From Latilactobacillus curvatus JCM 1096 = DSM 20019 (GTDB taxonomy: Bacteria; Bacillota; Bacilli; Lactobacillales; Lactobacillaceae), in NCBI RefSeq assembly GCF_004101845.1, contig NZ_CP026116.1:1240001-1304000 (forward strand): 64,000 nt of DNA, written 5' to 3'. Below, piece by piece: positions 11,912 to 64,000 of this stretch. The notes under the pieces were generated by a model that saw nothing but the letters and a program-made list of their open reading frames with translations, was not told the DNA's origin and did no database searches. The translations under genes and the position numbers were made by a program. Position 1 is the first letter of the stretch. Each line of letters opens with the position of its first letter.

Positions 11912-12007
11912 TGCGGCGAATGCGGTACTGAAATCGCAAGCATTGCTGCTTTTCGTCTGGTGTCCACATTCCGTTCCACCAGCACTTAACGCTTCAGTCC
12001 TACTCCG
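11912..12007 (-). promoter_or_regulatory. Tetrahydrofolate (THF) riboswitch
   Basis: Reading the minus strand from 12007, the sequence begins CGGAGTAGGACTGAAGCG, followed by the conserved TTAAGTG core, GGAATGTGGAC and CACCAGACG. The closing strand TTTCAGTACCGCATTCGCC pairs back with the 5' side. This matches the folT THF riboswitch class. A CTCC-AAAA-GGGAG hairpin just before the start codon can hide the ribosome binding site, suggesting translational control. Confidence 0.85.
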
Positions 12008-12097
12008 AATTTTTAGAACCCCTTAAATGTATCACTAACGTTATTTAATTACAAGCAATTGATTTTCATTTTTCAGCAACTCTTGCAGAAAATTTGC

Positions 12098-20855: not shown

Positions 20856-20862
20856 GTTAATT

Positions 20863-20961
20863 TTCACAAAACTTAAGACACATGATAAAACAAACTTAGT
20901 GCTGCTTTCTTCCGAACCTGACACGATTCGTAGGCTCATCATTGTCTCAAGGCCTTTCGGC
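20863..20961 (-). ncRNA. ffs: Signal recognition particle RNA (small type)
   Basis: The minus strand carries the SRP domain IV signature GTGTCAGGTTCGGAAG followed by AAAGCAGCAC. Flanking arms CTTGAGACA-ATGATGA and TTATCATGTGTCTTAAG pair into the long rod. A -10-like TAGAAT lies at 20974-20969, and a terminator follows. Location between tadA and dnaX is the usual one. Ends are approximate. Confidence 0.93.
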
Positions 20962-26838: not shown

Positions 26839-26894
26839 TTGATTCACCTCCATTAGATTTGTAAAACTTGTGGTCAAGAGTTCCTTATAAAAAT

Positions 26895-27011
26895 AAAAAA
26901 CTCCATGTCCACCAAGACATAGAGAGGGATTTCAACGTATCTTCCTCGGCAGGATATTAAGCCTATTGGCACCTGAGTCTTCGGTAGCATAAATAACCAA
27001 CTACAAATATA
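26895..27011 (-). promoter_or_regulatory. L10 leader (ribosomal protein autoregulation) with attenuator
   Basis: On the minus strand, after an extended -10 TGCTATATT (27014-27006), the transcript contains ACCGAAGAC...GGTGCC and AATATCCTGCCGAGG, the conserved L10-leader core. The hairpin CTCTATGTC / GACATGGAG with T6 (26895-26924) is the terminator. L10(L12)4 binding to such leaders represses rplJL. Confidence 0.88.
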
Positions 27012-58282: not shown

Positions 58283-59203
58283 TTAATCCGAACAAGCCCG
58301 GAATCTTTCAATGGCAGTCTGTTGATGATGTATTTTTAATGGTCGTTGATTAATTAGTTCAAGTGCTGCTAGGATCTCATCAGTCGTTACTTGGCTAAAA
58401 TTGGTCTTTTTCGGGAAGAACCAGCGTAACCGTCTATTAAAATATTCATTGGAACCTCGCTCCCATGGTGAATATGGATGGCAAAAATAAACTTTGATCT
58501 GATAATCCTGTTCTAAGGCCTGATAATTGGCAAACTCTTTACCATGATCAACAGTAATGGATTTTACTTGGGGACCGAAGGCCCCCATAAACTTGCCAAA
58601 GGCGGTGTTTAGAGCCTTAGCCGTTCTATTAGGGGCTTTGATGGCCCATAGAAGTCGGGTCTTACGTTCTACGAATGTAACCAGACATGATCGTGACTCA
58701 CTTCGACTAGAAAGCACCGTATCTACTTCCCAATGACCAAAAGCTAACCGTTGATTAACAGTTGTTGGCCGTTGTTCGATGGAAGTCCCACTTGTAAATT
58801 TCCCACGATTTTCGCTCACTCGGTGCTGGCGGACATTCCGATTGGGTAGATCAGTCAATTTGAAGGGGAGCCAGCCACGATTAAGCCAATTATAAATTGA
58901 CGCAGTGCTCAAGTTATAAGCGGCCGCAATGGTTTCTGGTGACCAGGTTAATCGTAAGTGATTGGTAATTAAAGTCGCTAATGCTGCCGTCAGCATCGAA
59001 CGACGACCGCAATTCCGCCTTTTGCGATCTGCATCTTGCTGAGCTAATTCTGGATCATAAGGTTTAACTCGGTCCAACTCATAGCTAATCGTAGCTTTGG
59101 CGACGCCTAAGGCGTCAGCCATTACTTGGTAAGATTTATTCCCCTCATTGACCAGTTGTGCTAGTGCGCCACGTTGAAAACGTGATAAAGTAGATGTACC
59201 CAA
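58283..59203 (-). CDS. IS30 family transposase
   Basis: About 306 residues. N-terminal helix-turn-helix SYQVMADALGVAKATISYEL; integrase core with the three acidic residues in GHWEVDTVLS, TVDHGKEFANYQAL and PWERGSNEYFNRRLRWFFPK. TTG at 59203 is preferred (GGGAG 7 bases upstream); GTG at 59212 overlaps that site. Its stop codon is in the terminal inverted repeat. Appears intact. Confidence 0.92.
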   Translation of the reverse strand: MGTSTLSRFQRGALAQLVNEGNKSYQVMADALGVAKATISYELDRVKPYDPELAQQDADRKRRNCGRRSMLTAALATLITNHLRLTWSPETIAAAYNLSTASIYNWLNRGWLPFKLTDLPNRNVRQHRVSENRGKFTSGTSIEQRPTTVNQRLAFGHWEVDTVLSSRSESRSCLVTFVERKTRLLWAIKAPNRTAKALNTAFGKFMGAFGPQVKSITVDHGKEFANYQALEQDYQIKVYFCHPYSPWERGSNEYFNRRLRWFFPKKTNFSQVTTDEILAALELINQRPLKIHHQQTAIERFRACSD

Positions 59204-59287
59204 AGTAATCACTCCCTATATTGGTTGGAATTAGCTACTACCATTGTAAGTGATTGCTTTGGGCTTTTTAATTTCTGTTCGGATTAA
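58283..59287 (-). mobile_element. IS30 family insertion sequence
   Basis: About 1005 bases bounded by inverted TTAATCCGAACA (58283-58294) and its complement TGTTCGGATTAA (59276-59287). The transposase fills it. No clear target duplication is seen. The adjacent gene is a truncated RpiR remnant, suggesting the insertion or a deletion beside it removed the 5' part. Confidence 0.85.
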
Positions 59288-59296
59288 TTATAGAAT

Positions 59297-59707
59297 TTGC
59301 CTATTCAAAAAAACGTTACGCTATCTGCGGTTCGTGGCGAGGAAAACTACGATGCCTATAATCTTAGTCCGGATGCTTGCGCGATTTTAATTTCCTATTC
59401 TGGCGAGAATCCCAACTTACTAGCACTTAACACTATTTTACGCACCCGCAACATCCCGACGATTGCGATTACCAGTATCGGTGAAAATCGACTTTCGCAA
59501 GAATGCACTTGCTTTTACCGATTACAACCCGTGAAAAACTCTACTCGAAAATCGGCAACTTTACCATTAATACCTCCATCATCTTCCTATTAAATGTTTT
59601 ATACGCGCTCGTTTTTTCGGAACACTACGATGCACATCTCAAACATCTAAAACGGATTGGTGAATTAGTCGACCATCGCACCATCAGTAACGCTGTCATG
59701 CAAGAAA
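59297..59707 (+). pseudogene. RpiR family regulator remnant (SIS domain)
   Basis: The first frame reads AILISYSGENPNLLALNTILRTRN...IAITSIGENRLSQE, the SIS sugar-phosphate-binding domain. From about 59503 the family sequence continues one frame over as LLLPITTREKLYSKIGNFTINTSIIFLLNVLYALVF. That is a net one-base deletion. The N-terminal HTH is missing, cut off at the IS30 end. Confidence 0.82.
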
Positions 59708-59716
59708 ATGAACGCA

Positions 59717-59752
59717 CAAAAAAAGCCCCTTCCTGACGGAAGGGGCTTTTTT
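59717..59752. terminator. Bidirectional terminator
   Basis: AAAAAAGCCCCTTCC / GGAAGGGGCTTTTTT; ends the rpiR remnant on one strand and the ncRNA candidate on the other. Confidence 0.9.
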
Positions 59753-59921
59753 CACAGTATTCCGAAGAATAAACACCTTGTGCTCCACAACACAGCGGGC
59801 GAAAACACCCTTGCAATACGGCAAGTGGTTAAATGAATAACCGTGGTATCCTGTATCTTTGGGTCTCCTAGCTGCCTTCGCAGAATAGTTGCCTACCGAG
59901 ACTTACTCGACTCATCGCATA
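59717..59921 (-). ncRNA. Candidate structured ncRNA (6S-like or Lacto-usp type; not identified)
   Basis: On the minus strand an extended -10 TGCTATAAT (59935-59928) starts a ~205-base transcript with no ORF. It ends at a strong terminator. Local hairpins occur along it: CTGC-GAAG-GCAG enclosed by GTCTC/GAGAC, GGTTA/TAACC, CTTGC/GCAAG, GGGTG-TTTT-CGCCC, TTGTG-GAG-CACAA and TATTC-TTCG-GAATA. Size fits a regulatory RNA such as 6S, but I cannot match a family reliably. Confidence 0.68.
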
Positions 59922-59927
59922 AACTTA

Positions 59928-59935
59928 TTATAGCA
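59928..59935 (-). promoter_or_regulatory. Extended -10 of the ncRNA candidate
   Basis: Minus-strand TGC followed by TATAAT, at the downstream end of the ThrE_2 gene. The -35 position, inside that gene's 3' end, is weak. Confidence 0.6.

Positions 59936-63312: not shown

Positions 63313-64000
<688 letters not shown>

Follow-up and report, generated by a model that had tools for sequence, protein, structure and literature searches.

We found that a small RNA gene of Latilactobacillus curvatus carries two sequence elements complementary to domain V of 23S rRNA, and that both coevolve with their rRNA targets. These comparisons strongly support the view that the RNA pairs with 23S rRNA. The best explanation, to which we assign a probability of about 0.65, is that of a trans-acting RNA that base-pairs with domain V while that domain is unfolded and serves as a chaperone in late 50S assembly; binding in cells, its timing or stage, and the chaperone role and its effect are what we infer. 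All coordinates refer to the analyzed window of 64,000 nucleotides, and the RNA gene, its parts and its rRNA targets lie on its minus strand.

A single-copy RNA gene of the Ref68/Lacto-3 family

The gene occupies positions 59717-59920, as delimited by Rfam coverage, inspection of the promoter and terminator, and homologue alignment. An earlier note on this DNA had listed the RNA as unidentified, but an Rfam scan assigned it to RF02840 (Ref68/Lacto-3) with 77.7 bits against a cut-off of 44. The match runs over the whole 124-nt model (model positions 1-124) and covers 59919-59780. The RNA is a member of a catalogued family without known function; literature searches with partial paper coverage found no stated function or rRNA target for Ref68/Lacto-3. 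The 6S and Lacto-usp identities suggested earlier from the size of the RNA had to be dropped, as neither appeared in the scan at a permissive threshold of E up to 1, and the RNA forms a four-way junction rather than the long rod with a central bubble of 6S. A box C/D or H/ACA snoRNA was likewise rejected, there being no Rfam match and no such architecture in the consensus structure.

The RNA is about 200 nt long, with a probable start at A59920 placed by the alignment of 56 homologues and an end in the T-run of the terminator. The promoter and terminator were recognized by inspection. An extended -10 element, TGCTATAAT (59927-59935), lies seven nucleotides from the probable start, and the promoter overlaps the end of the ThrE gene. 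When 56 non-redundant homologues were aligned at the start, the extended -10, with its TG, was common to them and the -35 was TTG-like in most; the promoter looks constitutive. An intrinsic terminator, supported by inspection and folding, spans 59718-59752. No open reading frame of at least 60 amino acids lies within the RNA on the minus strand, and a 63-amino-acid frame that overlaps the 3' part continues outwards into neighboring sequence. The RNA is single-copy in its own genome. The earlier reading of the locus as a noncoding gene with an extended -10, several hairpins (seven are present), one UUCG loop and a strong terminator was thus borne out: this is a real, independent structured RNA with its own promoter, its own terminator and a structure backed by covariation.

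Across the order, RF02840 matches at E up to 0.001 were obtained in 223 of 395 Lactobacillales genomes, with one match per genome among the matches listed, and the RNA is free-standing in this order. Named genomes with hits in an exact-pattern scan include Ligilactobacillus, Lentilactobacillus, Lacticaseibacillus, Liquorilactobacillus, Furfurilactobacillus, Periweissella, Pediococcus, Oenococcus, Enterococcus and others. One genus of the Lactobacillaceae (g2; L198, L215, L228-L230 and L233) gave no Rfam match, and its RNA was found through the conserved 5' block, complete with promoter and terminator. The RNA is present across most Lactobacillales, and part of the order is without a recognizable copy: the genomes examined from two families (f8 and f9) and a few others yielded only the antisense strand of 23S itself. 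Beyond the order we obtained nothing convincing: our model R1 gave one weak, coding-like match in 399 genomes of the class, and a search for the two-site pattern gave three matches that all resembled coding DNA. The exact-pattern scan of named genomes returned Lactobacillales plus two coding-like matches, in Pseudomonas and Lentibacillus.

The upstream neighbor is usually co-oriented and ends 20-60 nt before the RNA, and its identity differs between genera. It is ThrE at this locus; elsewhere it is, judging from sequence, presumably a YlbF-like protein, a uridine kinase, an oxidoreductase or others. The position downstream of the ThrE operon thus holds for L. curvatus but not as a general rule. 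The downstream gene also varies and is often convergent. Given that the neighbors on both sides vary, the RNA is not a leader of a downstream gene and is instead trans-acting. The short distance to the co-oriented gene in nearly all homologues leaves no space for an intervening terminator, and transcription running on from the upstream operon may contribute to the supply of the RNA.

At 58283-59736, fragments of a SIS-domain gene, which we take from its sequence to be RpiR/MurR-like, adjoin a gene for an IS30-type transposase with rve and HTH_38 domains. The fragments end at the terminator of the RNA, where T-runs are found on both strands, and this terminator may serve both the RNA and the SIS-domain gene. 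Other Rfam elements in the window, all on the minus strand, are a THF riboswitch (11912-12009), an L10 leader (26885-27002) and a bacterial small SRP RNA (20862-20958).

A consensus structure established by covariation

The 5' domain consists of an outer helix P2 with hairpins P2a and P2b (59863-59902; helices 1-3 of the covariation test) and is reduced in several genera. The 3' domain (59754-59854) is closed by P3 and forms a four-way junction with P4, P7 and P8. P3 pairs ACAG (59854-59851) with CUGU (59757-59754) and shows compensatory changes among homologues (CAG/CUG, CGG/CCG and UGG/CCA). The P4 arm (59804-59850) carries P5, read from the sequence, and P6, and corresponds to helices 5 and 6 of the test. 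The P7 arm with its hairpin P7a (59774-59801) corresponds to helices 7 and 8, and the P8 hairpin with its UUCG loop (59758-59771) to helix 9. P3, P7 and P8 are not in the Rfam model. The RF02840 model is thus incomplete: our RNA matches it along its whole 124 nt, but these three helices and the terminator are absent from the model, which also fails to detect the RNA of genus g2.

Aligning all homologues with plain MAFFT and folding the alignment with RNAalifold yielded no structure; a later helix search over about 70 homologues pointed to P3 (xCAG/CUGx'), P7 and P8, and a covariance model (156 positions, 44 pairs) then detected the RNA in all 74 loci tested. Within the 74-locus alignment, 93.9% of cells were paired and 43 of the 44 pairs had two-sided changes. 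The covariation score was 0.63 compared with 0.07-0.10 for slid-strand controls, and although the alignment was fitted to the model, so that these figures lean towards the structure, the gap to the controls is very wide. Low fold energy was discarded as a proof of structure because the signal fades once the terminator is removed: all 200 shuffles fold less well than the whole RNA (z = -3.9), but without the terminator z is only -0.7. It is covariation, not fold energy, that proves the structure.

The P6 loop, CGUAUU (59815-59820), keeps the pattern C-N-G-N-A-U across homologues with a variable fourth base. A scan of the well-filled columns in 52 genomes turned up no 23S target for this loop that held in 90% or more of them, and the loop is perhaps a protein or tertiary contact.

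Two complementarities to domain V of 23S rRNA

Complementarity to rRNA is kept by covariation at two sites in 61 and 62 genomes. The first element is the near-invariant 5' end of the RNA, (A)UGCGAUGAGUCGA, which lies outside every helix of the consensus structure. In L. curvatus this 5' guide, AUGCGAUGAGUCGA (59907-59920; homologue alignment and genome search), is complementary to the 5' strand of helix 90, 23S U2506-U2519 (E. coli numbers, with GAUGU2506 as the reference point), encoded at 63693-63706 in the rRNA operon at the end of the window. This part of 23S adjoins the peptidyl transferase center. Among 56 non-redundant homologues the block A-UGCGAYGRGNYGA is almost invariant, and its conservation falls at nucleotide 14, where the complementarity to 23S also stops. 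Searching the L. curvatus genome for the complement with up to 2 mismatches recovered, besides the RNA gene, seven occurrences of TCGGCTCATCGCA, which coincide with the 23S sites of seven rRNA operons. The duplex comprises 13 Watson-Crick pairs and one G-U, and the match is unique in the 16S-23S region of this genome (score 13.5, next best 6.5); only 2 of 20,000 shuffled motifs equaled its score. Over the 61 genomes with both RNA and 23S, 789 of 793 predicted cells of the 13-nt block pair, and a comparison of well-filled RNA columns with well-filled 23S columns in 52 genomes showed that only U2506-U2519 carries the whole block.

Nucleotide 6 of the RNA (U or C) faces 23S 2513 (A or G), and the combinations in 62 genomes were U-A in 36, U-G in 14, C-G in 12 and C-A in none. 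C occurs only where 2513 is G, genus g2 being among the groups that have it. Parsimony on the 23S tree requires five changes at nucleotide 6, with C gained at least five times and always on G2513. The independent-pairs test is powerless at this site; since U-G is tolerated, nucleotide 6 need not follow every change at 2513. U6 is also kept opposite G2513, where a mimic of the rRNA strand would have C. Two observations count against the pairing. A G at nucleotide 10 in some members of one family (L051, L052, L106 and L109 of family f5) creates a fixed G-G mismatch with 23S 2509 midway along the 5' duplex, and when single homologues are folded thermodynamically the 5' end comes out as only about half unpaired.

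The second element is the other strongly conserved loop, UGUGRA, at the tip of P7a. Here it reads UGUGGA (59784-59789; covariation with 2474) and is complementary to 23S 2473-2478 (UCCACA, helix 89; 63734-63739). This pairing is short (5-7 bp), and it follows its target without exception: UCCAC in 23S accompanies GUGGA in the loop in 34 genomes and UUCAC accompanies GUGAA in 28, with 0 exceptions in 62, so that loop G or A tracks 23S C or U at 2474 (G-C 34, A-U 28). With the sites masked during construction of the 23S tree, loop and 2474 switch jointly six times on it, and independent pairs agree in 6 of 6 cases (sign test p = 0.03, the minimum attainable with six pairs). Among all 23S columns, 2474 is the only one that predicts the loop perfectly (next best 0.80), and 2473-2477 is the only 23S window that is Watson-Crick-paired with the loop in 62 of 62 genomes, compared with at most 44 of 62 when labels were shuffled. 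Within 2431-2600, an initial set of 20 23S sequences showed variation in more than one genome at just three columns: 2474, 2513 and 2571, the last in parallel with 2513.

A proposed role in 50S assembly

We propose that a stable RNA of about 200 nt would base-pair in trans with two sites in domain V, the free 5' end (about 14 bp) with the 5' strand of helix 90 and the P7a loop with helix 89. The two targets are 27 nt apart in 23S, and their order fits one antiparallel arrangement, with the 5' end on the 3' target and P7a on the 5' target. The predicted 5' duplex has an energy of -22.8 kcal/mol compared with -15.2 for the best pairing of that strand within the rRNA stretch tested. Because the 5' duplex excludes helix 90, binding would be expected on pre-50S particles or free 23S rather than on mature ribosomes, and because it takes a strand that mature ribosomes use for helix 90, binding should come before final folding. 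Helices 89-93 belong to the portions of the 50S subunit that mature last; it is on these grounds that we propose an assembly chaperone. As the 50S subunit assembles, the RNA would keep this late-folding region open and hold it in register, with helix 89 presented and the strand of helix 90 sequestered until the late factors do their work, and would then be released.

The Streptococcus pyogenes RNA SSRC21 offers an experimental record for this family. Its primer contains the reverse complement of the 13-nt 5' block, and it shares with our RNA this block, the kind of size, a promoter and a terminator. Its neighbor, an anaerobic ribonucleotide reductase gene, fits the streptococcal homologue L206, whose neighboring frame we take from its sequence to encode that enzyme. 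According to the portions of the two papers available to us, SSRC21 (earlier SR914400) was detected by northern blot with its ends mapped, is highly stable when rifampicin is added, and is abundant during growth but drops dramatically in late stationary phase (PMC2765633, PMC3675131). Its stability and late-stationary fall fit ribosome production. The same portions report that its deletion is viable and changed 142 transcripts, with the V-ATPase operon up, which was interpreted as an effect on mRNA (PMC2765633, PMC3675131); the viable deletion means that the RNA is dispensable in rich medium. Unlike in our reading, SSRC21 is described there as a virulence and mRNA regulator, and these portions do not mention rRNA pairing.

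Could the RNA then be an ordinary mRNA-targeting small RNA for which unassembled 23S is a sponge or signal? The altered transcripts of the S. pyogenes deletion would favor this, but 23S explains both guide sequences order-wide and the mRNA changes may be indirect. We know of no mRNA target conserved across the whole order, which also counts against such regulation, and we regard it as improbable. Scarcely more credible is a brake, in which pairing blocks assembly or inactivates the catalytic region and thereby sets the number of active ribosomes. Exclusion of helix 90 would indeed keep the peptidyl transferase center unfolded, but the promoter has a constitutive look, and the course of SSRC21 over growth is the reverse of that of a hibernation factor. 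That the RNA guides an enzyme to the surroundings of the peptidyl transferase center, for base modification, processing or quality-control cleavage, is the least unlikely of these alternatives yet still doubtful. Two guide elements aimed at a region rich in modified nucleotides would suit it, and a protein could bind to the conserved elements of P6 and the junction, but no enzyme gene is linked to the RNA and bacterial rRNA modification nearby is done by stand-alone enzymes.

Least probable by far is that a structured RNA with some other function matches 23S by coincidence or through protein-directed mimicry of an rRNA strand. The 5' end does resemble the helix 90 partner strand, and a 14-nt match to rRNA can occasionally arise by chance, as the rare shuffled motifs show. 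Against this stand two separate sites that both covary, the six joint switches and the retention of U6 where a mimic would carry C; moreover, mimicry leaves the loop rule unexplained, given the apical position of 2474 in helix 89.

The accepted picture of bacterial ribosome assembly involves protein factors and rRNA leaders that act in cis, and trans-acting RNAs that pair with rRNA are regarded as an archaeal and eukaryotic feature. The bacterial leaders resemble our RNA in assisting rRNA folding but act in cis and on 16S, whereas this RNA is a separate gene aimed at 23S. Archaeal box C/D sRNAs also have dual rRNA-pairing guides; however, they direct methylation, and the RNA described here has neither a C/D box structure nor a linked enzyme. 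The chaperone snoRNAs of eukaryotes (snR190, U8 and U14) would be the closest in kind if an assembly chaperone is the right reading, being separate RNAs with two antisense elements and a pre-rRNA target; snR190 acts near the peptidyl transferase region. They differ in that our RNA is bacterial and shows no box C/D or H/ACA architecture, known partner protein or sign of common descent. By this analogy the RNA is most likely a convergent counterpart of the chaperone snoRNAs; the nearest working analogue would be eukaryotic and unrelated by descent, and on a stricter view the RNA could be called a variant of that kind. To our knowledge, no bacterial trans-acting RNA that pairs with rRNA is known, and our literature searches for bacterial RNAs pairing with 23S, with partial paper coverage, gave nothing relevant. 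The RNA family itself was known; the pairing with 23S is, as far as we found, new for bacteria. We think it probable, with a little less confidence than in the chaperone role itself, that most Lactobacillales have a dedicated snoRNA-like RNA that pairs in trans with two sites of domain V, next to the peptidyl transferase center, and acts as a chaperone while the active site of the ribosome forms, which would be the first in bacteria.

The pairing predicts mutual rescue of single-base swaps in the RNA and the rRNA, and it would give the orphan family RF02840 a function. A widespread bacterial RNA that coevolves with the catalytic region of the ribosome would alter the picture of bacterial ribosome assembly.
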